From: Coptis chinensis
Taxonomy: Eukaryota > Streptophyta > Magnoliopsida > Ranunculales > Ranunculaceae
Reading direction: 5' to 3'
Assembly: GCA_015680905.1 (NCBI GenBank)
Contig: CM027377.1
Span: 36,728,501 to 36,792,500, forward strand
DNA: 64,000 nucleotides
Positions 6,860 through 32,513 of this stretch are shown piece after piece. The translations under genes were made by a program, and so were the position numbers. Every line of letters starts with the position of its first letter. Position 1 is the stretch's first letter. The notes under the pieces are model-generated. The model made no database searches and had not been told where the DNA came from. It saw only the letters and a program-made list of their open reading frames with translations.

Positions 6860-6860
6860 T

Positions 6861-8366: not shown

Positions 8367-8404
8367 AACCACCCCCAAACAGCATTTTGCTTGTCCTCAA
8401 GCAA
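8367..8404 (-). other. Polypurine tract of element A
   Basis: Directly inside the 3' LTR the minus strand reads ...gaggacaagcaaaatgc, then tgtttgggggtggttt, then the LTR start TGATAAG. A G-run followed at once by the LTR is the expected plus-strand primer. The same block precedes the B 3' LTR (18504-18540). Related copies occur at internal positions (see findings). Confidence 0.7.
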
Positions 8405-10182: not shown

Positions 10183-11103
10183 TTAAACATTTTCCTCCTC
10201 ATCCTTAATGAAGAAATGAGGTTCCTTCGCATCCTGCCATGCTATGGTGATTTGCCAGGCTTCACGCCACTTATCGTCTACTATAGCTAACCTGTCAAGC
10301 GCCACTTGGTCGGATGGGGTATAAGGCGCAACTTGATGAGGTTGTATCCTCCACCCTTGCCAAGTCATTGCACGAAACGATCGTATAATACAATTGGTGG
10401 GTCTCACAATGTCGACCCCAACCCAATCCGTGAAATGGGCACAAAAAACAGGAAAGAAACATAGCATTATACGGCAAATTAAAACAGGCATAAGAAGGTA
10501 CTCATGCCTCTTGGCATGGGCTCGGGCTAAACTAGACATTAAGGTCTGGGGAATATCATAGAGTGTACGTCCCCCAGCTAAAGCAAGGAAAATATCACAA
10601 GTTTCGTCATTTATAGAAGAATAACGCTATTCCCCTCTAATGTTTAGCATAATCCAAAATATAACAGTGCCCACGTTCATAGACAGGCTACCAAGGGCGA
10701 CGTTATAATCCCCTTGGTCCTCTATCCTAAAGATTCCTGCCCTGTAATGCTCATGCAAATCATCATAGTTATACATGTACATATTATCTACCAAATAGGC
10801 CCATGAGTCTTGTATTTCGGCCAGCATAGCAAATCCAAACACAAAGGCTATCAAGAACCTGGAAATTTCCATTGGTTCATTCCCGATGGTGATAGAGAAC
10901 ACTTGTTCTCCATCTGGTCTATCAAAGAACTTACAATTATCATAAAAATAAGATGTAAGTGCGGGAGAATAAAGTTCATTAGGACTTACTAATAGTGGCT
11001 CCCATCCTGCTAGAATGATCACTTCGCGAAACCATGCACCATAGGTGTCACTTTGGAATAAGTCTTCAAAAGACTATTTTGGTATGATACGAGGGAAAGT
11101 CAT
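10183..11103 (-). pseudogene. TP2 ORF of element A, two nonsense mutations
   Basis: A 307-codon frame starting ATGACTTTCCCTCG at 11103, ending with an acidic tail (KDEEENV). Two in-frame TAG codons interrupt it: codon 10 (PK*SFEDL; CAG in the duplicate copy at 11195-11341) and within GE*RYSS near 10627, where B has TGG. The body has W-EPLL, LYSPALTSYFYDNC, QVFSITIGNEPMEISRFL, then SLSMNVGTVIFWIMLNI, LMSSLARAHAKRHEYLLMPVL and FTDWVGVD. This spacing (W, FY-x-N, iS--iA, lmsslar, llmpvLi) resembles the 'putative plant transposon protein' domain often found in the env-like position of Athila elements; that match is from memory and only moderately sure. Function unknown. TP2 of B (20325-21252) is the closest relative. 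Confidence 0.6.
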
Positions 11104-11341
11104 CCCCAATAAACTTGCTGGAATAGCTGCGAAGGATCCTGGAACAATCCTCGGAAAACTGGAAATTTTTGGTGCCCACAGGGGTTAGGGCGCAGTCACT
11201 TTGGAATAAGTCTTCAAAAGACTGTTTCGGTATGATACGAGGGAAAGTCATCCCCAATAACCTTGCTGGAATAGCTCGCGAAGGATCCCCGGAACAATCC
11301 TCGAAAACTGGAAATTTTGGTGCCCACAAGTCGGGGGCGGG
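11047..11341. repeat. 148-bp tandem duplication over the TP2 start
   Basis: The block starting gtcactttggaataagtctt at 11047 is repeated at 11195 with few differences (period 148). It duplicates the TP2 start codon and first 20 or so codons plus leader. The downstream-facing copy (sense) carries TAG where the other copy has CAG. B has a single copy, so the duplication is specific to A. Confidence 0.85.
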
Positions 11342-12172
11342 TGCGCTCAAGGTATGCACTGGATGGGCGGTTGTTAGCCCGATGAAAAACCGAATTCCAG
11401 TGTTTTGAAGCGCAGTGGCTCGAGTTTAAGGCTGGAGAGGGTGCAGGTCGCGCTCAGGGTAGAATTTCTTTGATAGGGCTTAGGGCGCAGGTGGCGCTCC
11501 ATTGGAAGCCTTAGTGCGCTTAGGGGAATCATAGATATCGCGAAGGAAAAAAATAGGTAAAGTGGGAATAAAACGTGAGAGATGAATGTGAAATGTAGTT
11601 GGGGTTGTGAGTGTAGAATGAATGCAGTTTTTATAGGATTTAAGTTGTTAAAACGAATCGGGAAGTTACCAAAACGTTTTAAGGCAATTACCGGAAACAA
11701 AAAATTTCCAAAACCGAAAACGGAAACAACCCATATTCTCTATTCCAAAACAAACCTAATATCTTTTAGGTTGAATTTAGGTTAGATAATGCCTAATTCA
11801 TCGAGATTTCATCCTATCACAATATCTATTCATATTGATGCCCATATCGGCAATATTCTCACCCTTTACTCCAACACAACTACTAAAATGGAGGATCCTA
11901 TAACAAATTATGCTAGAATAAATAATATCACCCCCAAATAATTCGGGAAGGTGGAATTAACGATAAACAATGCACACTTTGAAAAGAACCAAAGTATATT
12001 AAAATTGAAATTCAAATATAATTAACTACCGAATTTAAATTTAACTATTGAATTTAAACAACTTAATATCTGGACTAAGAAAAACAATAAAAACAACTAA
12101 ATACATCGAAACCACATATTTTTAGAAAACCTAGCCACGTGATGAAGATGGATCCTGAGATGGAGATTGGGC
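11342..12172 (-). other. Spacer between TP1 and TP2 in element A
   Basis: No conserved ORF. In sense order it has a polypurine-like tract at 11929-11940 (tatttgggggtg) soon after TP1, then AT-rich DNA, then a GC-rich leader (11341-11520) with repeated gcgc/ggtcgcgctc words just upstream of TP2. The 19-nt stretch at 11441-11459 (gtgcaggtcgcgctcaggg) recurs with one change at 30249-30267 in the gag leader. Confidence 0.5.
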
Positions 12173-13291
12173 CTAGGATGAAGAAGGACCCGAGCCATCC
12201 GTTCTTTGGCAACGACGCTCATGCCGCTCAGACTCATCTGAAATAAAACCCTCCAAGGGTGGCATGCGTTGTAGAATCTGTACTCGGAACAAGCCCTGTG
12301 CTTCCATCTCAGCCTTTATTACTGTATACTGGGCCTGGTGACGCTGGTGGATAGTCTCCATGTTACACAAGATATCTTCCTGACCCTTTTCGAGCACTTC
12401 TAAACTCGTCTGAAGGTTCGTTTGTTTATTTCGAACTATAATTTGCCTATCTCGTATATCTTCACAAATAACGTAAATGCAATGCACGCTAGTGTGCAAC
12501 AATGACATGCGTTTTGAATCAGACGTACACCTCTCCAAGGCATCTTCATCCAAACATGTAATGTCCTCCATTTCCTCATCTGAATCCACCACCCTATCCT
12601 CCAGCAACATCCAAGTCTTTTGGATACACTCCTTATAACTGATTTCATTTGCATGCAATTTCAATATCCTCCGCTCAGTTTTTGGTTTATTCCCCCAATA
12701 CAACATTATCTTCGTAATTAAAACAGGAAATGGTGTGATACTCTTCCTAACTCCTCTAATCATATTTAGCAAAAACTCGAGGATACATAATTTATACCTT
12801 TTCTCTTACAATATCCAGAGAACGTGCAGACATATGAACCCGATGTCGCTCACTTTCTCCTTCCCAATGACGTTCTTACCAATCCACTGAGCTACAGCCA
12901 GTTGGTTGGTTCGTAGAGATGACTGTCGAGCACAATGAGAAGTTGTATTATATTGACCCTCCATGAGGGTGTCGTTCATCAACGCAGGAACTCCAGTATA
13001 CTGGGATTCCTGCACGGTGGCGTCGAGGTGGCGTTCAGGCGTAATGTCTAAAATCTCAGCCAACTTCTCTCTCGATAATTCTCTCCTAGTCCCAGCCACT
13101 TTCATGAAAATTTTATGACCGTCCAACTCTCTCTTCTTATAGAATTGTTCGACCAAATTGGAGTGGTAGAAATCATCTTTCGAGTACCACAACCGATTCC
13201 AACCCCTTATAATCATCTCGTCATTGTAAAACGGCGCGAAGCGGTCAGCCGTAAATGCTTGTTCCGGCAACAACCTTTGTCTTTGAGCCAT
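12173..13291 (-). pseudogene. TP1 ORF of element A, one nonsense mutation
   Basis: A 372-codon frame beginning MAQRQRLLPEQAFTADRF at 13291 and ending DGSGPSSS. A single TAA at codon 162 (LWIL*EKRY) interrupts it; B has a glutamine codon there, so one C-to-T change explains it. The N-terminal half has W-NRLWYSKDDFYHSNLVEQFY, ELSREKLAEILDI, then IGKEKVSDIGFICLHVLWIL and MIRGVRKSITPFPVLITKIM; it resembles the plant transposon-protein domain also suspected for TP2. The C-terminal half has an acidic stretch (DSDEEMEDITCLDED), a probable coiled coil (about residues 260-340) and a basic tail RHERRCQRT that could be a nuclear signal. Function unknown. Confidence 0.6.
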
Positions 13292-14050
13292 TGATATTTT
13301 AGAACAATTTGGGGTTTAAAAGGACTGTGGGAATGGAGTTTGAGACTCCCTTACTAACAAAACAGTAGTGTTGGCGCGGGGGTGGCGCGGCAGTTCGAGT
13401 TTCTTTGAGTTTTGGGTGTTTTTCGGTGGTGGAAATTTTTGGGATTGGTGGAGGAGTGTTTTGGAGAAGATTTGAAGTTGGAATTGTATTGTGGGCGTGG
13501 GTGTATTAAGATTTATTTTTATTTTTATTTTTATTTTTGGTTAGGTTTTTGAATTTGGTAATGGCAGAATTGGAAAGAAATCGTGATTCTATTTGTTTGG
13601 AGGAAGGAGACGCACGCGCGTGCGTTGGGCCCAAGCCCAAAATGATTTTTCGATTTTTGTCGATTTTTAGCGCAATTTCAAACTAAAATTCCCGCTTTGT
13701 TACCGGTCCGATTTTTGCGAATAAGGTATGGAAATGATCAGGAGAGAATTTCCAATCTAATGATCCATAAAATGCTCTAGTTCAACCGTTGGTGATATGT
13801 AAGAAGATAGAAAATGCCTCGAAGTGCGTGCATGATGTAAGTTATACGAACGAATGAAATCTAATTTCATAGATAATGTTAATCCGGATCGGAATACGAT
13901 TAAATGGTCTAAACAACATAAATGGAAAGTTTGACCATCAATGAAAGAAACCCAAACACCCCATCCCCAAACAAATTTTAGACAACAGAGTTTAGAAAAT
14001 TTGTTTTAACAATGGGTTTTTTAAAGTCAGATTCCTAAGACTTTTAACAA
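13292..14050 (-). other. Leader between gag-pro and TP1 in element A
   Basis: Non-coding. In sense order: the motif aagtcttaggaatctgactt (14042-14020), a polypurine-like tract with tttggggatggggtgtttggg (13973-13951), AT-rich DNA, and a GC-rich box gcacgcgcgtgcgttgggccc near 13610-13630 upstream of TP1. The same order is seen in B (23211-24286). Confidence 0.5.
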
Positions 14051-16969
14051 TTAATTAGATATATTAATATATATACCATGTAGTTTTTCATATATTAACA
14101 ACCTAAAGAGTTGTGGGTCTTTCCATAAATAATTACTATGGATTGCACCCCCAAACAGAATCAAGCACCAATATTCTTTACGATGCAACTTATTGAAATG
14201 AAAGTGAAGTCTAATGGATCTAGAATGTAACCGCGCATGCACCTTCTTTCTCGCCTTTAAACGAGAGGGTTTCCAAGTGAATGATCGTGAGAAAATGGAT
14301 GTCTGTGGAAGATATGGTGGATATGGATGAATTTTAGATGTAAGAAATGGAAGAAATGAGAATGTAGGTTTGGCACAAAACTCATTCATGGTGTAGGTGG
14401 GAACTGTCTCAATTCTGAAAATAAAGGTGTCAAGTGCCTTTCCCTTGGAAATTATTTATGTATTAAGAGGATTTATAAAATCTTTAAGTACAGAAGAAAC
14501 AAAATGGTCAAGTGCAAACTCTAGGTTCCTTTGAAAGGGTGGAAGGTGGGGAATATTAGTGAGGGAAGATGAATGAGTGTCAGCTAGAGCTCTCAGGTCT
14601 AGATCATTAGAAGCCTTGAGATATGCTAGACATTCCTCAATAGGTGGGTCAAAAGAATCACTGGGATAGAGGGTGAAAAATTCATCTTCCGTCATAGCGT
14701 CAAGGGATAAAGGGATGTTGGTAGGGAGGGACTCGCGAGGTGGCAGGGAAGAGTTGCAAAAGAGTTAAAGGAAAATCTTCTTCAATTTCCTTTACATCCA
14801 AGGAGTATTTGTTGAAGTTGAAACTTTCAAGGGAAAGGAATTTGTGCCTCTGGTCATTCGGAAACGTGGTTTTGAAATAATCATGAGTTAAGCTCTCGAT
14901 CATGATAACCTCTCCATCAATATTTGTATAAGGCAACTGTTTGATCGTCTTAAAAACGTTAACCGCAACGGAAAGATGGCCAAAAGACAAGGACATCGAA
15001 CCATCGCAGCAGTTTATAAGTGCTTTGGCAGTTGCCAAGAAAGGGCGTCCTAAAATGATTGGAATAGAATCGTTAGCGACTTCTGTATCGAGGATAGAAC
15101 CTTAACCAATACATTTTCCACTACACCCTTAGGATACTTGATAGACCTATCACCTAGTTACAATGTCATTGTTATAGGTTGCATTTCATGTAGACCTATT
15201 TGTTTATATAAATAATAAGGGAGTAAGTTAACACTCGCCCCGAGGTCTAATAAGGCAATGGTCGTGTGAGTATCCCCTAAGGTGCATTGTACAGTAGGAC
15301 GACCAGGGTCCTTGTAGTTAACTATTCCATTGTGTTTTGTTAAAGTTGGAAACTGTTCCATTAAAAAGGCGTCTTTAGAAATCTTTGTCTTACGCCTAGT
15401 AGTGCACAACTCTTTAAGAAACTTAGCATGGTGAGGTAACTTTTTAATCGCTTCTAGGAAAGGTAAGTTTATCGTTAGATTTTTAAAAACTTTCCTAATT
15501 TCGTCAAAATTTGTATCCTTGTTTAACAAAGCTAATTTCTGAGGAAACGATGGTTTCTCTCTATATTTAGCGTATGAATCAATTGGATGTCTAACCTTTG
15601 CTTTATGTTTCTTAGGTTGTGGTTTAACTGGTACCTCTATAGGGGTAGGATCTCCAGTTCTTGTTTCGGTATCTAGTATAATATCTAGTGTAGAGACTAC
15701 TGGTGGGGTAACTATAGACATAGTTACTTTGTTATCCACTACTCTACCTGAACGGAGAGTGGTGATGGAATTTATCTCCCCTACGTTTGCATTTTCGTTA
15801 CTAGCATTAGCATTTACCTCAAAGGCTGTGTTTGGTGTTTTCAGATTAGGTATCGCTTGTCCTGGAAACACAACTTTGGATTGCACTTTCTCTTGAGCTA
15901 ACTGCTGTAAGGAAAGTTAGATGGCTTGTAAAATCTGTTGTTGAGATTGCATAAAGGTATCAAAACGATCCGGTTGTGGAGTAGTATTTACTACTGGTTG
16001 TGTGACAGGAACTATGCCACATTGATTATTAATGGGTGGATTTTGATAGTTATTATTTACCGGAATGATACCTTTATTAGCATTATAATAATTATTATAA
16101 TTACCCTGGCCTTGTCCTTGTCATGGTTGAGCTTGGTTGTTATAATTATAATTACCCTGACCTTGTCTTTGCCTTGGTGGACCTTGGTGGACCTTGGTTG
16201 TAATTGTTTGTTTGCCTAACATTTGGGTTAAACAACCTTGGAGGTTGTTGATTATTCCGCCAACCGAAGTTGGGGTTTTGTCGCCAAGCTGCATTAGGTT
16301 CGCTATTAATGGAACAAACGTTATCTTGTTGTGATTGTTGTTGCTCATAGGCGAAAGGACAATAGAGTCGGGATGCTCTGGACTCAAACATAAATTACAT
16401 GGATTGGAGTTGACATTCATGACGGGGATAGGCGTTTGTTGAACAGAAATAGCCTCTACCTTTTTAGTTAGAGATTCTATTAAATTTTTAAGTTCCGGAT
16501 CGGGTTTCATCTCAAACATACCGGCAGCCTTTACTGTTGTAGAAGAACTAGCGTTGCGGGAGATATCGTCACTACCCCCCCAGTTATTATTACGTTTAGT
16601 CTGATCTTCTAAAAATTTATAAGCCTCTGAGGCTCCTTTACTTAAGAAACTACCCCCATTCATTATGTCAAGGACTTCTTTATGGTGGTGTAGAAGTCCC
16701 TTGAAAAAGGCACGAACTAACGTGTCTTTCGCGAGGTTATGATGTGGACACTCTATAAGTAGATCGGTGAAACGATTCCAAGCCTCTGAGAATGATTCAT
16801 GAGGATTTTGTTGAAAGAAATGAATCTTGGAAAGCATTTCATCTGTCTTTAGTGGTGGGTAAAAATGTTCCATGAATAGTTGAACAAGTTTAGCCCACGA
16901 GTCCACAGAATTTGGTGCTTGGGCAGTTAACCAAGACGCCGCCTTATTGGCTAAAGTGAAGGGAAATAC
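14051..16969 (-). pseudogene. Element A gag-protease, downstream part
   Basis: Continues the gag frame from 29533 after removal of element B. Gag capsid-like segment: VFPFTLANKAASWL, EHFYPPLKTDEMLSKI, ESFSEAWNRFTDLL, VRAFFKGLLHHHKEVLDIMN. A CX2CX4HX4C knuckle (CNLCLSPEHPDS) is broken by a one-base frameshift near 16390. A protease segment follows (CTLGDTHTTIALLDLGASVN, about 15300-15215, DLGA being the active-site variant usual in this lineage), then GRPFLATAKALINCCDG. In place of reverse transcriptase comes a linker of about 250 residues (LPPFQRNLEFALDHFVSSVL ... NEFCAKPTF ... WCLILFGG) ending at 14051. Defects: TAA after ITMTL, a small deletion after LVKV with a frameshift, breaks at 14700 and 14456. 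Gag assembles particles and protease cuts the precursor; the linker is unknown. Confidence 0.8.
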
Positions 16970-18503
16970 TGATAAAACATAAAATTGCTTAGTTTACCTA
17001 CGAAATGAATGATGAACTCAAAACGTAAGTAAACTAAAACTATCTTAAGAGCCTATATGTTTATCAAAGATTCTACTCTCAATCCTATGAGATATAGTGG
17101 AGTAGGAAGTTCGTTCCACTCCTAGTCCTTCCGCATGTTAATGTTCTCTACGTATAAGTACTCTTAACTCTAAAGTCTAATGAGAGATTTACGAAGTGGC
17201 AATTAGACTACGATACAACTACCCACAAGATGCAACTAGTCGACTATTAGAACAACTATGGGAATGCTACGTTGATTCTATGATAAGGAGTTAGAGGGGG
17301 ATTGATTCCACCTTAACTCGACTTAATCCTACTAACAACTAATCGTCAGTAATCGAATTGAATCCCTTGAGAACAATATGGTTATTCCTAATCCCTAATT
17401 ACACATGACATTCCTACCAATTCATAACTAGCATGTGAACGATTAAACCCATTCTCATGGTGAACTAATCGCTTTTAGAGTGGAAAGGAAATTGCGACAA
17501 CTCTACGATAATCGGAATCAAGCTTTCATCAAGGCTTCTCAACCCCCTCTAATGGAGGTTTAGCCGAGAAACATTACGCAATCATTTCCGATTAAATTAA
17601 AACTAAACATAATATAAAGAATTGAAATTTACTAATCTAAATTAAACAATAATTAAAATCTAATTAATAACTAAGAATTGAATAACAAGTAATAAATGAA
17701 ATCAGATCTAACACAAATGTAAGTGACAAGAATCGAAATTAACAAACTAGATATTTTATTAATCAATCTAATTAAGAATAATGATTCTAGAGTTTAATCT
17801 AAAACAAGAATTGGATTTGAAACTAAACTTAACATAAAGAATTAAATCTAGATCTAGAAGTTATTCTAATGGCTACTTTCTATTCTAAGCTACCTTTATT
17901 TTCTAACCTAATTCTCTACCCTTATCTATCTACCATTAACCAAGAGTGAAGCTTTGGTTTTTATACATTCAGATCCAAAAATCATGCATGGGCTTGGAGC
18001 CATGTTTTGGGCCAGAGAATCAGGCCCAAAACCCAATTCTTTCAGTCCAAAAAGGCCTCTTCAGCTGCAGTTGGCTTCAACAGACTTTTCGTCCACTTCT
18101 GCTCTTCTGATTGGGTCAAGGCTTGGACCATTCGAAATCTATTTCCGAGCCGGTCGTTTTGACATAAGGTAGGCCCCATTCCGAGGTCAGAGTCCAAAGA
18201 TACGGCCTTCGGAAGTTCTCACCGACTGCGGTGATGTTTACGTCAAAATCGACTTTTTCAGCTTTTGAACGGGCTTTAGAAAGGCTGGTCTTCTTGAATC
18301 TTGGCCTTTAATCACGGAAATCCTTAGTAACCGATCTTTGCTCCTTTATCTCGCTAAAGTGGCACATTTCTGCACATAATGGACTTTGAAGCCTGAAATG
18401 CATAAAAACACGTAATCAGTGTTAACTCTTAATTATTACTCACATAATTGGTCTAATAGTATGACTATTACAGGGTTAAAACTACAGTTTTAGGCTCTTA
18501 TCA
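16970..18503 (-). repeat. Element B 3' LTR
   Basis: Begins tgataaaacataaaattg and ends ggctcttatca. Nearly identical to 27994-29527 apart from scattered changes and a few clustered patches (for example around 17310-17365, 17940 and 18220-18250). A TATA-like word (TATAAAAAC) lies on the minus strand at 17957-17965. Confidence 0.9.
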
Positions 18504-20324
18504 AACCACCCCCAAACAGCATTTTGCTTGTCCTCAAGCAAAGATGAGAAATTAGAATAAGTGACAAAAAATGGAGTTCTATCTACTCTCGTTTCGCTGA
18601 GTGAGATTGCATTGACCATATGCAACAAGGCCTTAAACCACTAGGAATTCCCTAGTGGACGAGTTATAGCCTCGTGAGAGTTTTCCAGTGAAGGTACTCA
18701 CAAACTTCATCTATACTACAACGACTAAGAAATAAAACTATTGTTTCCGTATTCATGCTCTAAATTAACTATACCTCTCACTAGAAATGCATATAGAGTA
18801 ATCAAGTCGAAACCTAAGCTAATATATACATAATAATCAATCATCTACAATAAACATATATACAATGAGTAATACTATGAAATGCCTAGCGGGTTTGTTT
18901 AAAACTTCGGGATAAGCGTCCTTAAGTAGGTTCTCACAATAATAGTCAAGATACAACACTATGAATTTTCCACTCAAGTTTCACTACTCCGATTAATGCG
19001 AAAGGCACACTTTACCTTACAATCTCAATAACAACAAGGAAGCCGGAGTCGATCAAACACATCTGCCACTTACTATCACACTAACCTATTCCTAATTAAG
19101 CTAGAGGTCTTTATTAGGTGTTGCGGGGGTTAGGAGATGGTTTAAGAAGGAAGGAAATGATATTCAAAAAGGACAAGTCTGAGATAATAGAGTCTTCAGA
19201 TTATGTAACTAGAGAAAACCTTGTTATTTACTTTTGCTTCTACACTTTGTTTCCATCCTTAGCCATATTTTTTTTTTTTTTTTTTTTTCTTTGGCTTTTG
19301 ACTCCCTTTTATTCTATTTTTGGAGTTTTTATTTTATTTCTATTTTTATTTTTCTTTTCTTTGGATGGAAACTTCTTTTCTTTATTTTTTGAAGCCATTA
19401 ACTAACTTTTGTTTACACAAGTTTTTCTCTTCTTCTTTCTTCCTCATTCTATTTTCAGACTTATCTAAATTGGGTGGGTTGAATTTTTTATTTTGTTTTG
19501 TTTTGTAACAGGGTAAAGGATTTGTGGTTTATGAAAGGCTAAAGAAAGGCTCAGAGGGGCGACTAGTGGAAAATAATTCATAGGTTTGAATTTCTGGCTA
19601 TATCGATTCAAAGAGAGCCTAAATTCTCGCTTAGGATATGGCATAGTGATCAAGCAAGTGGACGTTTGATTTCTCTATCCGGATTTTACTTCTCCCTTGT
19701 GTCATTTCTCAAATGTTTCGCTCATATAAGGCTTTAGGCTATATTCTCACAGGATTTGTAGAATAAGTACTCTAGCCTAGAGTTCAGAAACTTACTGCTA
19801 ACAATCATAGATACTCATGTAATATATTTATAGATAGATGCAAAGATTATTACCTACATATTAACCTAAGTTTCTAAAAATTATTCTAATGCAAAAGCTA
19901 CGTGAGACTTCTAGATTATTAAGAGCATAGAGAAGGAAAACAATACCACTATTCCTAAGTGTATAGCATGAACTTATTTATTTATATTTTTGAATTTTTG
20001 AAATTTTAACTTGAAAACAAATGCCTATCATACATATCTATATCCTAACAGATGCCTTAATTACACGTGTTTCTATGCCCCCCCTCCCCAAACAAGAAGC
20101 ATGCTTTGTCCTCAAAGCATATAAATAAATAGGGTAGGAAAATTACCATTGAAGCGCGTGAAATTCAGGAACATCTGCAAAACAAAGTTAGAACATACTA
20201 ATATAGGAAATAAAAACTGACTCAACTCTATAAGAGTTCTACCCATTATAGGGTTAACAAGAATGAAATTGCTTGGGACATAAGTAGACACTAAATAGAA
20301 TGAAAACTTACCTTATCTCCCGCA
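18504..20324 (-). other. Element B polypurine tract and 3' non-coding region
   Basis: The polypurine tract (minus tgtttgggggtgg) is at 18507-18519, directly beside the LTR. The rest is collinear with 8405-10182 of A: conserved inverted repeat at 18638-18658, a long T run at 19268-19288, and a second polypurine-like block at 20078-20093 followed by gctttgtcctca. No supported ORF; the T-rich ORF near 19118-19405 is low-complexity. Confidence 0.55.
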
Positions 20325-21252
20325 TTACTCATCATCTTCCTCATCCTCTTCTTCCATAAAGAAGTGAGGTTCCTTTAAAGTCTGCCATGCCATGATAATT
20401 TGTCGGGCTTCTGCCATTTATCATCTATTATTGCTAACCTATTAAGAGCCACTTGGTCCGGACGGGGTGTAGGGTGCAACCTGATGAGGTTGTATCCTCC
20501 ACCCTTGCCAAGTCATTACGGAAAGATCGAATAATACTATTGGTGGGTCGCATGCGATTAATCGATCGTAATCCAATCCGTGAAACGTGTACAAAAAGCG
20601 GGAAAGAAACATAGCATAATACGGGAAATCAGAACAGGCATAAGAAGGTACTTATGCCTCATGCTATGGGATCGAGCTAAACTAGACATCAAGGTTCGGG
20701 GAAGGTCATGACACATACGTCCCGTGGCTAAAGCAAGGAAAACGCTGCAAGTGGCATCATTCACAGAAGAAAAACGCCATTCCCCTAAAATGTTTAGCAT
20801 GATCCAAAACATAACAGTTCCTATGTTCATGGACAGGCTACCAAAGGCGACGTTATATTCCCCTTGGTCCTCGATACGGAAAATGCCCGCCCCATACGAC
20901 TCATGCAAAAACTCATAAGTGTAGACATACATATTATCTACCCAATAACACCATGGGTCTTGTATTTCAGCGGGCATAGCAAGTCCAAGAACAAATGCTA
21001 GCAAGAACCTGGTAATTTCCATTGGTTCATTATCAATGTTGATGGAGAACACTTGTTCTCCATCTGGTCTTTCAAAGAAAATGCAGTTATCGTAAAAATA
21101 AGATGCTAGTGTTGGAGAATAAAGTGCATCGTGTCTTACCATAAGCGGCTCCCAAATTAACGTATGTGATCGCCACAAAACCAAGCACCATAAGTAGTGC
21201 TTTGGAACAAATCTTCGAAAGACCGTTCCGGTATCAATGTTGGAGATGTCAT
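20325..21252 (-). pseudogene. TP2 ORF of element B
   Basis: Starts ATGACATCTCCAACATTG at 21252 (MTSPTLIPERSFEDLFQS) and ends in an acidic tail EEEDEEDDE at 20325. The longest open part is 21184-20558 (WEPLMVRHDALYSPTLASYF, FSINIDNEPMEITRFLLAFV, MLNILGEWRFSSVNDATC, SSLARSHSMRHKYLLMPVLI). Frameshifts near 21190 and after FTDWITID (20558) break it; unlike A it keeps the Trp codon in GEWRF. It appears to be of the plant transposon-protein type seen in env-like positions (moderate confidence). Paralogous in layout to TP1 and possibly derived from the same domain. Confidence 0.6.
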
Positions 21253-22035
21253 CTCAAAATTACGCTCGAATAGCTGCGAATGATCCGAAACTATCCGCAA
21301 AAACTAGAATTTTTCGGTCCACGGAAGTCGTAGCGAGTGTGCTCAAGATTTGAATTCCAGTGTTTGAGCTGGTCGCTTTCACCTTGAAAGCGAAAAGCGC
21401 CTCGACAAAAAATATGAAAAAAAATTGTAGAGCCTTGAGTGCGCTTTCGTTGCCTTGAAACTTCGGAAAATGAGACGAAAACGGGGAACCGTGGGGAGTG
21501 AAAGGTGAGTGATGGAGGTTAGGTGTAGTGTGAGTTGTGAGTGTAGAATGTATGAAGTTTATATAGGTTTTAAGTTGCTAAACCGGATCGGGAAGTTGCT
21601 AAAAGGTTTTTACGGCAGTTTTCGGAAATACCGAAATTTCCAAACCCGAAAACGGAAACAACTCACTTTCTTGATTCTAAAACAAACCTAGTATCTTTTA
21701 GGTTGAATTTATGATAGAATCTACCTATTTAATCGAGATTTCATCCTACCATGATACTTATTCATAGATATGCCTAAACGGCCATATGTTCACCTTGACT
21801 CCGCAATAAATTCTAAGACGAGGGTCATATAAAAATCATGCTGGAATAGATAAAACCACCCCCAAACAATTTGGGAAGGTGGGATCAATATTAAACAACC
21901 ATGCATAATGAAAATAACCGCGTTATATTAAAATTTTCATTCGAAGTAAATTTCACTACAAAATTCAAATTACGGAAATTAAAACTTACATTAAAATAAA
22001 TAACAATAATGAAACTACAAATAAAAATAGAAACA
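21253..22035 (-). other. Spacer between TP1 and TP2 in element B
   Basis: No conserved ORF. It contains a polypurine-like tract at 21856-21867 (minus tgtttgggggtgg) after TP1, then AT-rich DNA, then a leader (21300-21500) before TP2 that is less GC-rich than in A. Confidence 0.5.
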
Positions 22036-23210
22036 TCAATTGATACTATTCCTAACCACTCCAGTACTGGTAGCGGAGGGCACACGCTCCAGAGATGGCT
22101 CCTGAGCTCCCGATGGGCCAGCACCATTCGTCCTTCGGCGACGACGCTCATGCCTCGATGGTGTGTCCTCAGAAGGAGAATCCCCATGAGGTGGGAATCG
22201 TGCAAGCATGTCGGTCCGGAACTGGCGCTGAGCTTCTAACTCGGCCCTCATCTGTTCCCACCTCTCATTCTCTCTCTGGGTACGGATCTCAAAGTTATGA
22301 TGGATAGTTGCCTGTCGAGTCCGGAGGTCTTCGCAGATAGTGTTGAGCGAACGCATGCCACGATGAATTACGGCCATGCGTTCTGCATCTGACCAACACC
22401 TCTATAGGGCATCCGCATCAAAACAAGTCAAGTCCTCCTCATCCTCCGAGGCATTCTCATTTCCCCCATCCTCCTCGGCGTTCTCGTTTCCCCATCCTCC
22501 TCGTCCTCTACCTTATCCTCAGGCAACCTCCAAACTCGTTGGACACACTCCTTATAGATGCGAGGATTTCGGTGTAGGGTGATGTAAGACCTATCGGGCG
22601 CTTTGCTGCTCTCAACTTCAAGATGATCTTGGTTATCAACACAGGGAGAGGTGCAACAGACTTCCCTACTCCCCTAATCATGCTAAGCAAAAACTCCAAG
22701 ATATAGAACTCGTACTTCTGCTCCTGGAGTATCCATAAGATGTGGAGGCAGTTCAGGCCGATGTCGCCGACCTTCTCCTTCCCCGGGCGTTCGCTCCGAC
22801 CAATCCACCGAAATGCGGCCCGGAGTTGGTTCGAGGGATGATCGGCGAACACAATGCGATCTCGCGTTGTAGTTCCTTCGTAACTATCACGCTCATTAAT
22901 GGTTCTACCCCATTATATTGGGACTCTTGCAACATGACATCGGATGGATTCTAGGCGGAATGCCTAGAATCTCACCAACAACCCAATGAGTCACTTCCTT
23001 CCTCCTCTTCGCCACCATAACAAAATCCTAGTCCCTCCAACTCCCTCGTATTGTAGAACCGTCGGACTAAGTCTTCGTGGTAATAGGCTTCGATCGAAAA
23101 TACCACAAACTATTCCAGTCTCTCATCGATCATTTCATCACCGTAAAAGCGGTAGCGAAGTGGTCGCCAGTAAAAGCTTGCTCCGGCAAAATTCGGCGTT
23201 GTTGAGCCAT
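22036..23210 (-). pseudogene. TP1 ORF of element B, frameshifted
   Basis: Starts MAQQRRILPEQAFTGDHF at 23210 and ends VVRNSIN at 22036. Matches TP1 of A throughout: VGDIGLNCLHILWILQEQKY (with Q where A has a stop), MIRGVGKSVAPLPVLITKII, then the coiled-coil-like segment (FEIRTQRENERWEQMRAELE) and a basic tail RHERRRRRTNGAGPSG, richer in Arg than in A. Frameshifts near 23145, 22900 and 22500 disrupt it, and the Glu-rich acidic stretch around 22440-22500 is in another frame. Unknown function; a protein binding nucleic acid or Gag is conceivable from the coil plus basic tail (inference). Confidence 0.6.
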
Positions 23211-24286
23211 TGGAAGTTTGAATACGGTTTGAGGTTTGTAGAAGGTAGGGGGAAGCAATGAGGGACACCTCACTAAAAAGAACGATGGTGGTGGTGGTGT
23301 GGTAACGCGGCAGCACCGATTTTTTTTTTTTTTATTTTGATTTTCCGGTGGTTTTTGTTGATGTAAATTTGTGGAGGTTGTGGGGCGGCGCGGTTGGAGT
23401 AGATTTGGGTTGGGTCTTGGATTGTGGGCGTGGGTTAATTAGGTTTTGTTTTTAATTTACTTTTTTGGTCGGGTTTGAAGCTTTGTTAATGGCGGTTTGT
23501 GGAAAAAAACGATGAACTGATGGTGAAGGTAAGGGCGCGGGTGCGCTGTCGGTGGGCGCGGGTTGGGCCCAAGCCCAAATCGAAATTTGTGAATTTTTTG
23601 ATTTTTTCGCGAAACTTCAAATCAAAATTGCCGCTTCGTTACCGGTCCGATTTTTACGAATGAGATATGGAAATGATCAGAAGAGAATTTCAAATCCAAT
23701 GATCCATAAAACACTCTATTTCGACAGTGGATGACATGTAAGATAGTGGAAAACGCCTCGAAGTGCGTGCCTGACGTACGTTATGCGAACGACTGATCTC
23801 TAAATTCAAGATTATGTCAACCCGGATCGTAATACAATTAAACGGCCTAAGCAACTGTAATGGGACATAAACATTCTAGGACGAAAACACGAACACCCCA
23901 TCCCCAAACAAATTTTTTACAACAAAGCTTAGAAAATTTGTTTTTAGCAGTGGGTCTTTTAAAGTCAGATTCCCGAGACTTCCTAGATTACTATGTTTAT
24001 TCTTTAATATATATATATATATATATTTTAAAAGAAAAACAATAAACAAGAAACAAGAAACATAATTCACCCCATAGAGAAACATGACTAAAAAAATCCG
24101 AAAAACATGCAAGAGTGGAAAATGTGAATTATGTCAAACGTGGACTTAGGATCCAAAGATTTACAGCCACACACTCCATAGGGAGGGCCCGTTACCTTAA
24201 TGGTGCGCCACCAATATATGGAAATGAAAGGAAATGCACCAAACACAAAAGTTGAGTCGTTTATAGTCAGATACTCGAGACTTTAT
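23211..24286 (-). other. Leader between gag-pro and TP1 in element B
   Basis: Non-coding. In sense order: a first copy of the motif agtctcgagtatctgact (24282-24262), the conserved box with agtgtgtggctgtaaa and ggatcctaagtccac (24200-24140), a (TA)n run at 24007-24026, a second motif copy agtctcgggaatctgacttt (23980-23961), a polypurine-like tract (23909-23893), and a GC-rich box with gggcgcgg words (about 23530-23570) before TP1. Confidence 0.5.
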
Positions 24287-27200
24287 CTAAACATATGTAT
24301 GAACATGCAGTTTATCATATATCAACAACCAAAATAGTTGTAGATCATTCCATAAATAAATATCACAGAAAACATATCCAAACACAATCAAGCACCAAGA
24401 TTTCCTATGACGCAACCTAGTGAATTGAAAGCGAAGTCGGATAACCCTATTACGTAACCTAGCATGTACCTTCTTTTTCATTTTTGAACGAGTGGGTGTT
24501 CTAGTAAATAAGTGTGAAAAAGTGAATGGTTGTGGAGAATATGGTGGATATGGATAAGTTGTAGAAGGACAGCATGTAAACAATGAGGATGTGGTTTTAG
24601 CACAAAACTCATTCATGGTGTGTGTAGGGACTGTTTCAAGTCTGAAAATGAAGGTGTCAAACGCTTTTGTCTTCTGAAGTATTTGTTTACTAGGTGGATT
24701 TAAAAACTTATGAAGCACAGAAGAAACAAAAGGATCGAGTGCAAACTCGAGATTCCTTTGAAAGGGTGAAAGGAGGGAAGTCGAGGTGGATGTTATGGAA
24801 AGTAGTTCTTGATAGGGTGAATTATCACCTGCTCTAAGAAACTCATCGAATTGCTCATCTAGATTGGTCATATCCTCGTTACTATGATAGTCCTCTACAT
24901 CTTTGAGAAAGTCATCTATCTCATCCTCATCCGTAATATGTGTATCGACTAGTGTAGGGATGGAAATGTTGAGTCCTGAACTTCCAAATGAAAGAAATTT
25001 GGGCATATGATTATCGGGAACGCGTGTTGTTGAAATAATCTCGAAAGCAAAGCTCGATCATGCTAACCTCTCCATCCATGTATCGAATAGGGTAACTGCG
25101 GTTCTTTGTTTTAAAACATTGACTTCAACAGCAAGATGGCCAAAAGACATGGACATTGAACCATCGCGCAATTAATGAGCGCATTGGCAATTGCCGGAAA
25201 AGGACGCCCTAAGATGATCGGGACAGAGTCGCTAACGACTTCGTATCGAGGATGACAAAATCAGCCGATAGTAAAAATCCTGAACTTTTACCGAACATTT
25301 TCGACCACACCCTTAGGATACTTAATAGACCGATCGCTTAATTGCAACGCCATTTTAGTGGGTTGCATCTCGCTAGACCTATTTGTATATACAAATAAAA
25401 TGGGAGTAAGTTAACACTAGCCCCCAAGTCTAATAACGCGGTCGTCGTATAAGAATCTCCTAAGGTGCATTGTACAGTAAGACGACCATGGTCCTTGTAC
25501 TTAACAATTCCATTATGTTCAGATAGAGTTGAGAATTGTTCTGTTAAAAAGGTGTCTTTTGGTATATTGGTCTTATGCCTAGTAGTACACAATTTCTTAA
25601 GAAACTTAGCATGGTGTGGTAGCTTTTTAATAGCTTCGAGGAAGGGAAGGTTTATAGTTAGATTCTTGAAAACGTCCCTAATCTCCTCATAATTTGTATC
25701 CCTAGTTAACACAGCTAATTTTTGTGGAAACGGTGGTTTCTGTCTATATTTAGCAATAGTGTCACCTGGATGTTTAACCGTGGCTTTCAGTTTCTTAGGT
25801 TGTGTTGTAAGTGGTACCTCTACAATGGTAGGCTCTTCAGTTTCTATTTCGGTATCTAGTAAAATAGCAGGTGTAGGGGCTACTGGTGGGGTAACTATAG
25901 GCATAGTTACTTTGTTATCAACCACTCTGCGAGAGTGGTGATGGCCTTTAGCTCACCTACATTTTCATATTCATTACTAGTATTATCGGTTACCTCAAAG
26001 GCTGTATTTGTTGTTTTAGGATTAGGTATTTCGTGACTGAAACACACCTTTGGGTTGGGCTTTATCTTGAGCCAACTGTTGGGTTAAATTATTAACGGAT
26101 TGTAGAAGCCGTTGGTTAGATTGAGCCATGGTTTGGAAAAGTTTTGGCTTACTTATATGAAGGTGTCAAGACGATCCGGTTGTGTGGGTGTAGTAGTCAC
26201 GGGTGGTGTGGATTTGAACTATTTCACGTGAATTATTTATGGGTGGATTTTGATAGTTATTATTTACCTAAACGATACCTCTATTAGCATTATAATTATT
26301 ATAACTACCTTGACCTTGTGCTTGACCTTGTCGAGGTTGCACTTGGTTGTTATAATTATTAAAATTACCCCGACCGCCCTTGTCGTGGTGGAGCTTGGTT
26401 AAAACTTTGTGTTGGCCTAACATATTGATTATTATACCCCGGAGGTGTGGCGTGTTGGTTATTTCTCCAACCGGTTGGGATTTTGTCTCAAGGGGCGTTA
26501 GGTTCACTATTAATGGAACAAGCCCTGTTCATAGGCTATAGGACGCTGGGAGTCGGGATGCTCGTGGCTCCAAATGAAAACTACATGGATTTGAATTTAC
26601 ATTCATGATGGGGATAGGCTTTTGTTGAACAGAAATGGCCTCTACCTTTTTAGTGAGTGATTCGATTAGAGTTTTAAGCTCGGGATCATGTTTAATTTCA
26701 AACATACCGGCGGCCTTAACTGTATTTGATGAACTAGCGGAGCGGTGGATATCATCACAACCCCCCAGTTGTTATTTCGCTTAATTTGATCCTCTAAAAA
26801 TTTATAAGCCTCCGAGGCTCCTTTGCTTAAGAAACTACCCCCATTCATTATGTCTAGGAATTCTTTATGGTGGTGTAGAAGTCCTTTGAAAAAGGCATGA
26901 ACTAACATGTCTTTCACTAAGTTATGATGTGGATACTCTATAAGGAGATCGGTGAAACGATTCCAAGCCTCTGAAAATATTTCATGAGGATTTTGTCGAA
27001 AGAAATGAATCTTGGAAAGCATCTCATCCGTCTTTAGGGGTGGGTAAAATGTTCCATAAACAAACTAAACAAGTTTAGCCCACGAGTCCACGTAATTAGG
27101 CGCCCGGCAGCTTAACCAAGACGCCTTTATCGGGCTAAGGTGAAAGGGAATACCCTTAGTTTAATTTGTTCCCCACCAACCGTAGGATGGTGGAATGTTA

Positions 27201-27516
27201 TTAGGACATGTTCAATCCTACGCATGTGCTGATAAGGTTTTTCATGGTCTAATCCATGAAAAACGGGTAACAAATTAAAATATTTGGGGATTCGAAATCC
27301 CCCACCGGGTCCGCTAGAACGATGCAAGATTTGGGGCTATCGCTCAAGGCTTTGTAGAAGTCAGAGAGAGGAGTCTCTTCTTCGTCAGGCATTGTGTCAG
27401 GTGATGTGTGTGAAATAGTAGCTAGGGGTGTAGTGGGTGGTATACTAGATAGACTTGTTTGTTGGCGTTGTTGGGTAATTACGTTCGGTGTTTTGTTTGG
27501 CGGACCTTAATCTCAT
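24287..27516 (-). pseudogene. Element B gag-protease-linker
   Basis: Starts ATGAGATTAAGGTCC (MRLRS, the N-terminus shared by A, D and E gag) at 27516. Gag segments: FNLLPVFHGLDHEKPYQHMR (27270-27210), MLSKIHFFRQNPHEIFSEAW, AFFKGLLHHHKEFLDIMNGG. The basic Gln/Asn/Gly-rich nucleocapsid region is near 26500-26270. Protease CTLGDSYTTTALLDLGASVN is at about 25475-25415. The C-terminal linker (25006-24287) has an acidic start (DEDEIDDFLKDVEDYHSNED), then LSPFQRNLEFALDPFVSSVL and the NEFCAKTTSS and WCLIVFG blocks conserved with A. No reverse transcriptase. Several frameshifts (27480-27330, 26760, 26260, 25935, 25340) mean it is probably not functional. Conservation of the linker between A and B argues that it was once a real protein part. 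Confidence 0.8.
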
Positions 27517-27973
27517 ACAAGGCTAAAACCAAACTTAGCTAAAGACGCCAACACTCCAAACAATTCGATATACTAGTATAAACCTCTAACAGAGATCGCG
27601 AGGTGTGGAAGAAAGGAATACCTGATTGCGTCCTTGCTTCGCTTATGAATAACGTCTTGTTTACGCATGTTCAGTGTATATAACAAGTTAGAATACTGAA
27701 AAACTTGAAAAATCAAAGTTCGAGTCAAAACTGTAGAATTTCGGAAAAATTAGCAAAGCGGCACGCGCTCTCATAGAATTGGTCGCTACTTTGTGTTCCA
27801 AGCTATAGTAGCAGTGCGCCTCCTTATAGGCTTGATCGGCCAAGTGTAATTTTGTCGCGGAATTTTTCAACGATGAAACGGAAAACCACAGTATGAATCA
27901 AACAAGGGTGGGTGGGTGAAATGGAACTTTAAGAAAAGTACTTACACTATGAAAACAATGCGAATGTGAAACT
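27517..27973 (-). other. Element B 5' leader
   Basis: About 460 bp of untranslated leader between the primer site and gag. No ORF of note; the 27688-27870 frame has no recognisable domain. Confidence 0.5.
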
Positions 27974-27974
27974 A

Positions 27975-27991
27975 AGATGGCAGCGGCGCCA
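27975..27991 (-). other. Primer-binding site of element B
   Basis: The minus strand reads TGGCGCCGCTGCCATCT two bases after the LTR. It is complementary to the 3' end of plant tRNA-Asp (which ends GGCAACGGCGCCA) with one mismatch in the first 13 positions. tRNA-Asp priming is typical of Athila elements. Confidence 0.75.
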
Positions 27992-27993
27992 TT

Positions 27994-29527
27994 TGATAAA
28001 ACATAAAATTGCTTAGTTTACCTACGAAATGAATGATGAACTCAAAACGTAAGTAAACTAAAACTATCTTAAGAGCCTATATGTTTATCAAAGATTCTAC
28101 TCTCAATCCTATGAGATATAGTGGAGTAGGAAGTTCGTTCCACTCCTAGTCCTTCTGCATGTTAATGTTCTCTACGTATAAGTACTCTTAACTCTAAAGT
28201 CTAATGAGAGATTTACGAAGTGGCAACTAGACTACGATACAACTACCCACAAGATGCAACTAGTCGACTATTAGAACAACTATGGGAATGCTACGTTGAT
28301 TCTATGATAAGGAGTTAGAGGGGGATTGATTCCACCTTAACTTCGACGTAATCCTACTAACGAATTTAATCGTCAGAATCCGAATTGAACTGCTTCGCAG
28401 AACAATATGGTTATTCCTAATCCCTAATTACACATGGCATTCCTACCAATTCATAACTAGCATGTGAACGATTAAACCCATTCTCATGGTGAACTAATCA
28501 CTTCTAGAGTGGAAAGGAAATTGCGACGACTCTACGATAATCGGAATCAAGCTTTCATCAAGGCTTCTCAACCCCCTCTAATGGAGGTTTAGCCGAGAAT
28601 CATTACGCAATCATTTCCGATTAAATTAAAACTAAACATAATATAAAGAATTGAAATTTACTAATCTAAATTAAACAATAATTAAAATCTAATTAATAAC
28701 TAAGAATTGAATAACAAGTAATAAATGAAATCAGATCTAACACAAATGTAAATGACAAGAATCGAAATTAACAAACTAGCTATTTTATTAATCAATCTAA
28801 TTAAGAATAATGATTCTAGAGTTTAATTTAAAACAAGAATTAGATTTGAAACTAAACTTAACATAAAGAATTAAATATAGATCTAGAAGTTATTCTAATG
28901 GCTACTTTCTATTCTAAGCTACCTTTATTTTCTAACCTAATTCTCTACCCTTATCTATCTACCATTAAGTGAAGCTTTGGTTTTTATACATTCAGATCCA
29001 AAAATCGTGCATGGGCTTGGAGCCATATTTTGGGCCAGAGAATCAGGCCCAAAACCCAATTCTTTCAGTCCAAAAAGGCCTCTTCAGCTATAGTTGGCTT
29101 CAACAGACTTTTCGTCCACTTCTGCTCCTCTGATTGGGTCAAAGCTTGGACCATTGGAAATCTCTTTCCGAGCCGGTCGTTTTGACATAAGGTAGGCCCC
29201 ATTCCGAGGTCTGAGTCCAAAGATACGACGCCGGAAGTTCTCGCTACGACCGTGATGATTACACTGCAAGGCGTCGACTTTTTAGCTTTTGACCGGGCTT
29301 TAGAAAGGCTGGTCTTCTTGAATCTTGGCCTTTAATCACGGAACTCCTTAGTAACCGACCTTTGCTCCTTTATCTCGCTAAAGTGGCACATTTCTGCACA
29401 TAATGGACTTTGAAGCCTGAAATGCATAAAAACACGTAATCAGTGTTAACTCTTAATTATTACTCACATAATTGGTCTAATAGTATGACTGTTACAGGGT
29501 TAAAACTACAGTTTTGGGTTCTTATCA
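27994..29527 (-). repeat. Element B 5' LTR
   Basis: 1534 bp, the same length as the 3' LTR, with the same ends (tgataaaac ... gggttcttatca). TATA-like word on the minus strand near 28980-28988. Confidence 0.9.
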
Positions 29528-29532
29528 AATAC

Positions 29533-29901
29533 CCTTTGTTTAATTTGTTCAGCACCAATCGTAGGATGGTGAAATATAGTAAGGACTTGGTCAATCCTAC
29601 GCATGTGCTGATAAGGCTTTTCATAGTCTAACCCATGAAAAATGGGTAACAAATTAAATATATTCGGGGGAATTCGGAAATCCCCCACTAGGTCTGATAG
29701 AACGATGCAAGATTTAGGGCTATCGTTCAAGGCTCTGTAAAAGTCAAAGAGAGGAGACTCTCTTTCTTCAGCCATTGCTTCAGGTGGTATGTGTGGTATA
29801 TTAGTTAGAGATGTAGTGAGTGGTATACTAGAAAGACGTATTTGTTGTCGTTGTCGGTTAATTACGTTAGGCGTTTTTCTTCGGCCTGACGTTAATCTCA
29901 T
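29533..29901 (-). pseudogene. Element A gag, N-terminal part
   Basis: Starts MRLTSGRRKTPNV at 29901 and runs through SPLFDFYRALNDSPKSCIVL, FNLLPIFHGLDYEKPYQHMR and EQIKQRVF up to the insertion of element B. This is the N-terminal gag domain shared with D and E. It is cut from the rest (14051-16969) by element B; the two halves are in frame once B and one aatac copy are removed, so the gene was still open here when B arrived. Confidence 0.85.
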
Positions 29902-30530
29902 GCAAGGCTAAGACCAATCTTAATGAAACACAATAACACTCCAAACAATCCTGATATGCTAGTATGAACCTCTAACAAAAGATGCGAGGTGTTGAAGAAA
30001 AGAGTACCTGAAAGCCTCCTTGCTTCGCTTATGAATAGCGTCTTGTTTATGCGTGCTCAGTGTATATAACAAGTTAGAACACTGAAAATCTTGAAGAAAT
30101 GGAAGTTTGAATCAAACCTGTGGAAATCGGGTAGTTTCAGCAGAGGGCGCGGTCGCGCTCAGAATAGGCCTAAGCTAGGCGCAAGTCGCTACTCAGTCAA
30201 GCCGGGATTTCCAGCGGGGGCAGTCGCCTCAAGTTAGCCTTGGGGCCGGTGCAGGTCACGCTCAGGGCTTGAAGTGGAATTCTAGGCGTGGGCGGTCGTC
30301 GCTCAAGTTAGCCTTGGTAGGGGCGTCGCTTCGGGCTTGAAGTGGAATTCCGGGCATGTGGGTGCGAGTGCTCCAATTTGGCTTGCCTGTATGGTGGTCG
30401 CTCCTAGTAATTTTTCTAGGAAAATTTCAGTGCTGAAACGGACAACCACAGTGATAATCAAACAAGGGTGGGTGGGTTATGGAACTTTGAAAAACTATCA
30501 ATTCTAAAGAAAACAATGCTACAGAGTACT
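29902..30530 (-). other. Element A 5' leader with GC-rich minisatellite
   Basis: Untranslated leader. Between 30140 and 30410 it contains two to three imperfect copies of a roughly 80-bp GC-rich unit (ctcaagttagccttgg ... gggcttgaagtggaattc), unlike the AT-rich surroundings. One stretch (30249-30267) recurs at 11441-11459 upstream of TP2. Confidence 0.6.
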
Positions 30531-30548
30531 AAGATGGCAGTAACGCCA
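30531..30548 (-). other. Primer-binding site of element A, degenerate
   Basis: The minus strand reads TGGCGTTACTGCCATCTT two bases after the 5' LTR. It is a mutated form of the tRNA-Asp type site seen in B (TGGCGCCGCTGCCATCTT). Confidence 0.6.
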
Positions 30549-30706
30549 TTTGATAACTCATAAAAAGATAGTTTTACTCACAAATAAAGCGATGAACTCT
30601 AAACGAAAGTAAAACTATAAACTGTTGCTTATACTAGACTTATCAAAGATATTTGTTTTCTACTCTCGAATCTATTGACGTAGAGTTGGAATAGAAGATT
30701 CGTTCC

Positions 30707-31822: not shown

Positions 31823-31972
31823 GTTCCACTCCTAGCTAGTCCTTTAGCATTCAAGTTTTCTATAATTGATAGTCTATCCAAGGTCAATGAGAGATTTACG
31901 AAGGGAATTTAATACTACGATGTGAATTCAAATAACAAGATACAAATAACGGAATGACAGAATACTAAGAGT

Positions 31973-32480
31973 CACTACAACAAATATGACATATGACATC
32001 ACTAATTTTAGATCACTTTTAGCGAAGTGATGTCATATGAAAACTATGACATCACTTTTCTCAGCATGTGATGTAATAATTAGAGTTAATGATTATTTAG
32101 TACCACGAACTTTTACATTTTTTTCTAAATGGTACCCAAACTTTGTTTCTCGCCTATTCATACCACGAAGTTTCAATTTATTTCAATTTAGTACATCAGT
32201 TAATTTTCGGTCCAATTTCACTAACGGTGTTAGCACTATTCACACAACACTATTTGCGTGAACAGTGTTTTTCACTATTCAAGTAAACCGTGTTTTTTCA
32301 AAAAATTCAAATTTTGAAAAAAAACAAAAAACACTATTCATGTGAATATTGTTGTCACTATTCATGTGAACATTTTTTTTTTTAAAAAAAATCTTTAATC
32401 AATCTTAAAAAGTAATTCTTTAATGAAAAATAATAAAAACACTATTTATGTGAATAGTGTTTTCACTATTCACATGAACA

Positions 32481-32513
<33 letters not shown>

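Follow-up and report, generated by a model that had tools for sequence, protein, structure and literature searches.

Retrotransposons bounded by long terminal repeats (LTRs) and lacking pol have been described in several plants. In the available text of PMC2410132, pol is present in 4 of 11 Arabidopsis Athila families and absent from the other 7, five of which hold gag and env, and the pol-less families are reported to have kept multiplying over as much as 2 million years, presumably in trans, with their open reading frames (ORFs) under purifying selection. In wheat, RLG_Quinta carries gag and a domain of unknown function (DUF) without reverse transcriptase (RT) and integrase, and RLG_Cereba is regarded as the partner that mobilises it, on the basis of a shared primer-binding site and shared LTR termini (PMC11302176, available part); TR-GAG, a gag-only non-autonomous LTR element, has transposed in Arabidopsis ddm1 (PMC8704663, available part). 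Additional ORFs are given as common in such elements in the accessible sections of PMC11728184, PMC7264820 and PMC11963269. The present analysis concerns 64,000 nt of Coptis chinensis (the window, meaning the whole stretch analysed; 36.73-36.79 Mb on contig C1 of an assembly of 935.6 Mb in 116 contigs), in which two elements, A and B, carry gag-protease and two additional ORFs and no pol. It is likely that A and B are sublineage copies of one old and numerous non-autonomous family, mobilised in trans by pol-bearing relatives while supplying a Gag-Pro-linker protein and one or both ORF products.

An earlier sequence-only reading of the window had regarded the keeping of extra ORFs after the loss of pol as the reverse of expectation. 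The Arabidopsis families cited above speak against this, and since pol-less gag and env Athila families have been known since 2008, the present plan is not unprecedented. A and B resemble Athila II, IIIa, IVc, Va and VI, as these are portrayed in the available text of PMC2410132, in their LTRs, gag, env-like ORF, lack of pol, purifying selection and inter-family recombination. Unlike them, A and B carry a linker of unknown origin after the protease (the likeness is drawn from descriptions, with no Arabidopsis sequence compared), their two extra ORFs are mutually paralogous and their copies are counted in thousands. With RLG_Quinta they share gag, a segment of unknown function (DUF1 in Quinta, likened to the linker by description only) and the lack of RT and integrase; RLG_Quinta and RLG_Cereba differ in being centromere-specific, and no 3' ORFs are described for them in the available part of PMC11302176. 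TR-GAG elements, likewise LTR elements that are non-autonomous, have a gag ORF but hold gag only, and the case presented in the accessible part of PMC8704663 is Copia. The extra ORFs of A and B are also comparable to the Athila 3' additional ORFs (Transposase_32 / ATHILA), which are sense ORFs between pol and the 3' LTR in the portion of PMC11728184 available.

Two nested elements and their family

Both elements lie on the minus strand and follow the same plan of LTRs, primer site, gag-protease, linker, ORF-u, ORF-d and polypurine tract, ORF-u being the linker-proximal and ORF-d the 3'-proximal extra ORF (TP1 and TP2 of the sequence-only reading). B (16970-29528) is delimited by a 5' LTR (27994-29528) and a 3' LTR (16970-18504) that align at 95.6% identity and differ by 4.1% (Kimura two-parameter distance, K2P, 0.042) and by an exact target duplication, AATAC, and it sits within the gag of A. 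Its primer-binding site TGGCGCCGCTGCC (27979-27991), which we take to be tRNA-Asp-like, is followed by the gag-protease region (25058-27700, frames broken), the linker (24290-24989), ORF-u (22030-23438, frames broken), ORF-d (20434-21253) and the polypurine tract (18505-18516). The internal part of A comprises 8369-16969 and 29529-30550, B splitting its gag into a leader and gag N-terminal part (29529-30550, 83.9% identical to B 27141-27740) and a gag C-terminal part continuous with protease and linker (14051-16969, the linker at about 14051-14790); ORF-u (12173-13315), ORF-d (10183-11073), the polypurine tract (8368-8379) and the 3' LTR (6861-8367) complete it.

The 5' LTR of A is in three minus-strand pieces, with a solo LTR and a CACTA-type element standing between them: an inner piece (30551-30706, 96.3% to 6856-7016), a middle piece (31823-31972, 92.8% to 7012-7159) and an outer piece (41029-42223, 94% to 7157-8366), at K2P 0.04, 0.035 and 0.05 from the 3' LTR, respectively. 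The outer duplication of A is TCCAT with one additional T at the left side, and a related empty site is found near 43880-43930. Clean duplications and a young B had been claimed from the letters of the window. The duplication is exact for B and nearly so for A; the nesting of B in A agrees with a younger B, but by LTR divergence the two are of similar age and B is not clearly younger.

Retrotrans_gag of Pfam is matched by the gag of A and of B (E 5.8e-19 and 5.1e-07), and the gag of a third element of the window, E (57194-63171, plus strand; primer site, gag, protease, RT with its core deleted, RNase H and integrase), is also recognised. The protease of A gives a weak match to Asp_protease_2 (E 0.032, below the cut-off), and the protease of both elements was otherwise identified through alignment to E. 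Gag type and aspartic protease fit the Ty3/gypsy Athila lineage, though they are not specific to Athila, and the label Ty3/gypsy Athila-type given to A and B is a provisional one based on the element plan. Pfam scans of 20 A/B ORF pieces and alignments to E revealed no RT, RNase H or integrase in A or B, in agreement with what had been read from the letters. LTRs, primer-binding site, polypurine tract, target duplication and multiple copies, together with the absence of the three enzymes, place both among non-autonomous LTR retrotransposons.

The linker is numerous in the genome. With up to 3 mismatches allowed, a 24-mer taken from it is present at 4347 places of the 936 Mb (reversed-pattern control 0), and at least 40 long matches were obtained for the linker of B at 96% or more and for that of A at 94% or more, the window's own copy included in each case. 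For ORF-d of B, at least 40 scored matches at 95% or more were recovered, window included, and all but one span the whole 813-nt query. Junction stretches of 2.1 kb at the protease/linker site were then examined in 20 of the 39 listed non-window B-type ORF-d copies. The linker is present in 18 of these, 2 with other DNA upstream, and the remaining 2 gave no match; protease and linker are contiguous in 16, the downstream spacer also being in view in 15 and L052 ending within the linker. In the sampled copy L056, linker and protease form one open frame of 394 codons. None of the 20 stretches gave RNase H or integrase, and the RT query from E matched its protease/pre-RT end only. A third pol-less lineage, C (contig C9; LTR K2P 0.071), is nested in a pol-bearing relative, P9, between its integrase and ORF-u (L062 515 to L069 5821). 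On the evidence of these counts and junctions, this is a large pol-less family and not two accidents, which bears out the multi-copy family proposed by the sequence-only reading.

Identity between A and B is uneven, with 89% in the stretch from ORF-d to the LTR, 80-84% in gag-protease, 70% in the ORF-d region, 67% in the linker and 63% in ORF-u. This pattern fits recombination between lineages, as in Arabidopsis Athila, by which mosaics would arise. The stretch from ORF-d to the LTR (8369-10150 in A, 18505-20430 in B) is closer than any coding part and may be a recombinant patch or a constrained region.

The linker in place of pol and the signs of selection

Nucleotide homology between B and E covers the protease to about 24984 in B and 60562 in E, and restarts at 24242 in B and 63316 in E. 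Consequently, the linker (about 750 bp) occupies the place of the RT-RNase H-integrase of E, so that a segment of unknown function stands in A and B where RT and integrase belong, as in the gag and DUF arrangement of Quinta. The linker, recognised from the letters as common to A and B, is about 240 residues long, and it is present in all three pol-less lineages A, B and C. In the compared parts of E, P9 and a further pol-bearing relative, P7, it was not found past its first ~40 residues. Thus the pol-less state looks older than the split of A, B and C, and the divergence among their linkers (dS 0.6-0.7) probably accumulated while pol-less; at a rate that we assume to be 1.3e-8 per site per year, this would correspond to an order of magnitude of 25 million years.

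Independent loss of pol in A, B and C, making them dead deletion derivatives, is very hard to credit. Deletion derivatives are common among plant LTR elements, and in E and P7 the RT core has been deleted separately, but the same linker follows the protease in A, B, C and thousands of places. In the favoured reading of a trans-mobilised family, the ancestor would have held pol and both 3' ORFs, and the linker of about 240 aa would have replaced the RT-RNase H-integrase segment in frame with the protease.

An origin of the linker as a leftover of pre-RT or post-integrase sequence was rejected, as blastn matched the first ~40 nt only and tblastx gave no match. No homologue was found in a large protein database (E <= 0.01) by a short-exact-word search, by which distant relatives could be missed; the integrase of E, used as a control query, found 7910 proteins, with named plant proteins among the matches listed. 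Against the PDB the best match had an E of 0.023, taken as chance, and structure prediction was of low confidence (mean predicted local distance difference test score, pLDDT, 32.4) and was not used. No description of the linker was found in the literature, in searches that could not be specific to it. The linker is taken as a new detail, as are two RNA hairpins in ORF-d that pol-bearing and pol-less elements have in common.

The ratio of nonsynonymous to synonymous divergence (dN/dS) was estimated among A, B and C. For the linker it is 0.49 (0.34-0.74) for A-B, 0.45 (0.31-0.64) for A-C and 0.61 (0.41-0.87) for B-C; for ORF-d it is 0.27, 0.23 and 0.28, and for gag 0.46, 0.36 and 0.42, in the same order. 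ORF-u gives 0.20-0.28 between A and B, with dS near-saturated. Ratios near 1 for the linker and the two ORFs would have spoken against the sequence-only reading; those obtained are lower for the linker (0.45-0.61) and for ORF-d (0.23-0.28), as they are for gag (0.36-0.46). A copy-level variant test was also performed on B-type copies (16 for the linker, 15 for the protease and 30 for ORF-d). Variants confined to one copy are near neutral, their nonsynonymous to synonymous ratio (N/S) relative to expectation being 1.16 for the linker, 0.73 for the protease and 0.87 for ORF-d, and for variants present in at least 4 copies the ratio is 0.46, 0.45 and 0.45, respectively. Singletons and these common variants differ for the linker (Fisher p 0.018), for ORF-d (p 0.010) and for the pooled parts (p 1.6e-4), and the linker past nt 90, where the frame is unambiguous, gives p = 0.0075. 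These results are read as pointing to purifying selection on gag, on the linker and on the two ORFs, and suggest that the retained parts matter, as the sequence-only reading had supposed of the two proteins or their RNA; a need for both ORFs does not follow, C lacking ORF-u.

Several features of the same data weigh against selection on these parts. Some codon maps cross frameshifts, the dN/dS of the B protease is unreliable, and in comparisons of old copies dN/dS reflects selection in the past together with neutral decay. The protease alone is not significant (p 0.18 among 15 B-type copies), and variants in 2-3 copies are not clearly depleted, with ratios of 1.68 for the linker, 0.80 for the protease and 0.74 for ORF-d; past nt 90 of the linker they comprise 5 synonymous and 31 nonsynonymous changes, again without depletion. 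Copies free of frameshifts and stops number 7 of 17 for the linker past nt 90 and 3 of 29 for ORF-d.

ORF-u, ORF-d and the hairpins in ORF-d

ORF-u and ORF-d, which like the linker are common to A and B, are paralogous to each other (BLASTP E 3e-07 in a single comparison). Lineage C keeps the linker and ORF-d without ORF-u. Assignment of the ORFs to a Pfam plant-transposon family had been proposed, and is not sustained: ORF-u and ORF-d pieces matched no such family, and neither Transposase_32 (PF20167) nor ATHILA ORF-1 (PF03078) gave a match over the cut-off for pieces of either ORF. ORF-u faintly resembles the Athila additional ORFs by eye, with no significant Transposase_32/ATHILA match for ORF-u or ORF-d. 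Elsewhere in the genome PF20167 gave 150 scored matches among the 150 of 1080 candidates that were scored, none inside the window, and a Transposase_32 profile comparison using 7 alike members was not significant. A genome search with PF03078 gave no match, but it did not detect any control either and so carries no weight. For ORF-d, nothing was found in the protein database at E <= 0.001 by the short-exact-word search, in which distant relatives could be missed, and the PDB gave no match; structure prediction was again of low confidence (mean pLDDT 38.3) and was not used.

H1 and H2, two inverted repeats, rank among the best-conserved 24-mers of ORF-d. In B, H1 (21041-21064, minus strand) has a 10-bp stem and the loop AAGT, and H2 (20636-20659, minus strand) a 9-bp stem and a 6-nt loop; in A, H1 (10891-10914, minus strand) includes one G-U wobble. 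Both occupy the same positions in A, B, C and P7 and are absent from the distant relative P8. Stem changes between lineages are of three kinds, each from a Watson-Crick pair to G-U. In 60 dinucleotide shuffles per sequence, stems of at least 9 bp occurred on average 0 (B), 0.017 (A) and 0.017 (C) times per shuffle, compared with 2 observed in B and 2 in C, A having no such stem without wobble pairs. When A, one B-type copy, C and P7 were compared over 249 windows, synonymous divergence was lowest at H2 (0 versus 0.49 overall), and the H1 windows rank 7, 8, 11 and 12; all pairs are retained in 28 of 30 B-type copies for H1 and in 25 of 30 for H2. As the two sites were chosen for their conservation, H1 and H2 are a lead towards conserved RNA hairpins and not a proof. 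Rfam gave no match at gathering scores, and a literature search for such packaging hairpins found no paper.

The hairpins bear on whether the pol-less elements are pure parasites, whose own proteins would be irrelevant and whose ORFs would persist through RNA packaging signals and a short decay time. The broken frames of B, the near-neutral singletons, the scarcity of frameshift- and stop-free ORF-d copies (3 of 29 compared) and the finding that H1 and H2 are the sole Watson-Crick stems of at least 9 bp (loop 3-8) common to B and C in the internal parts read all agree with such a state. It is nevertheless unlikely, given the fewer amino-acid changes among common variants and the dN/dS of 0.23-0.61 among linker-sharing lineages. 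An abundant enzyme-less retrotransposon family with signs of coding selection after the loss of pol, and with another segment standing where pol was lost, makes the question of parasite or contributor testable, the linker and the two hairpins being specific parts to test.

A more particular and speculative proposal, to which we would give a fairly small chance, is that the linker works in trans as a genuinely new module, a Gag-Pro-linker polyprotein recruiting particles or enzymes of the pol-bearing relatives to pol-less RNA, with H1 and H2 acting as a packaging signal common to pol-bearing and pol-less elements. If true, a linker module together with packaging hairpins would explain both the occurrence of the linker in all three pol-less lineages and the keeping of ORF-d despite the loss of ORF-u.

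Pol-bearing relatives and the surrounding ground

E retains RNase H (PF17917, E 3.9e-33) and integrase (PF00665, E 4.3e-12) without an RT core, and P7 (contig C7) is deleted at the identical junction (E 61224-61289; P7 = L067 6525-6860). E and P7 apparently represent a second kind of element, RT-defective and non-autonomous with RNase H and integrase kept, which has also multiplied. P7 reads LTR, gag, protease, RT start, RNase H, integrase, ORF-u, ORF-d, 3' stretch, polypurine tract and LTR, its ORF-d being interrupted by an LTR piece; it was rejected as a complete element owing to the deletion shared with E. As both ORFs occur in pol-bearing relatives, and in P7 in the same order, they look ancestral. 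An RT core was found in P9 (L068) and in L065, with the F-x-DD motif, which we take as that of RT, and with broken frames. With the RT core missing from both E and P7, RT would have to come from relatives of the P9 and L065 type, which are better candidates than E, put forward by the sequence-only reading as a past source of enzymes.

Further relatives were sampled as 6.5 kb downstream of 6 of the 39 listed other long integrase matches. ORF-u-like sequence follows in the same orientation in L060, in L063 and, weakly and at a distance of 6.2 kb, in L064; in L062 it comes after a nested element (L069), L059 carries the ORFs in opposite orientation and L061 has none. For comparison with the linker count, a 24-mer from RNase H of these relatives is present at 1334 places (reversed-pattern control 0). 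The linker and RNase H probes are unequally conserved, A and C being already 3 mismatches off the linker probe, and RT-deleted copies of the E and P7 kind are among the RNase H places. The ratio of about 3 is therefore approximate, and the figure of 1334 does not give the number of autonomous elements.

The signals acted on in cis are shared. About 22 nt at the polypurine tract are identical in A, B, C and P7, the polypurine tract and nearly the same LTR termini are common to pol-less elements and pol-bearing relatives, and degenerate versions of the B primer site are present in A, C, E and P7. Pol-less copies would be transcribed from their own LTR and provide Gag-Pro-linker and one or more ORF products, with RT, RNase H and integrase arriving in trans from pol-bearing relatives, which could copy and insert the pol-less RNA because polypurine tract, near-same LTR termini and similar primer sites are shared. 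Some observations on the relatives argue the other way. The 8.9 kb upstream in P9 gave no gag match, and no single record read holds gag, protease, RT core, RNase H, integrase and both ORFs. In addition, the LTRs of A and B are about 30% different from that of P7 where alignable, and the primer sites show a few base differences and unequal spacing between A/B and the relatives.

The difference of the A and B LTRs from those of P7 and E, and the small sampling, would also suit the view that each pol-less lineage is driven by an autonomous twin that carries the LTR of that lineage and escaped detection, which we judge improbable. LTRs beside pol in L060 and L062 had been candidates for pol-bearing LTRs and were rejected, as a primer site follows each and they belong to nested pol-less elements; RNase H and integrase occur in none of the 20 B-type junction stretches, and for Arabidopsis Athila the available part of PMC2410132 reasons in the same way. 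With these two candidates set aside, no pol-bearing copy with an A/B-type LTR was seen in this small sample, in line with the expectation that such copies are not the common form; the best-40 similarity searches favour close kin of the query, and a rare element of this kind could escape them. Mobilisation in trans by relatives with partly different LTRs stays the favoured explanation.

The LTR at 30707-31822 (minus strand) was considered as the 5' LTR of A and ruled out, being a solo LTR of 1116 bp with its own duplication, GTTCC, about 18-19% different from the LTRs of A. The CACTA-type DNA element (31973-41028), also inside the 5' LTR of A, has the termini CACTACAACAA / TTGTTGTAGTG and the duplication AGT, and within it 40490-41028 is an 81% copy of 36393-36919. 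The flanks of A (42224-42693 and 6574-6861) match a nearby second copy (80%; region 43632-44371) that acts as the empty site, so that the target of A was one of the copies of a sequence present in duplicate. In the LTR region of E (53600-57200), pieces of LTR are repeated several times, in both inverted and direct orientation, and a fragment at 45361-46677, which is 66-76% related to the noncoding 3' part of A and B, is apparently the remnant of another element.

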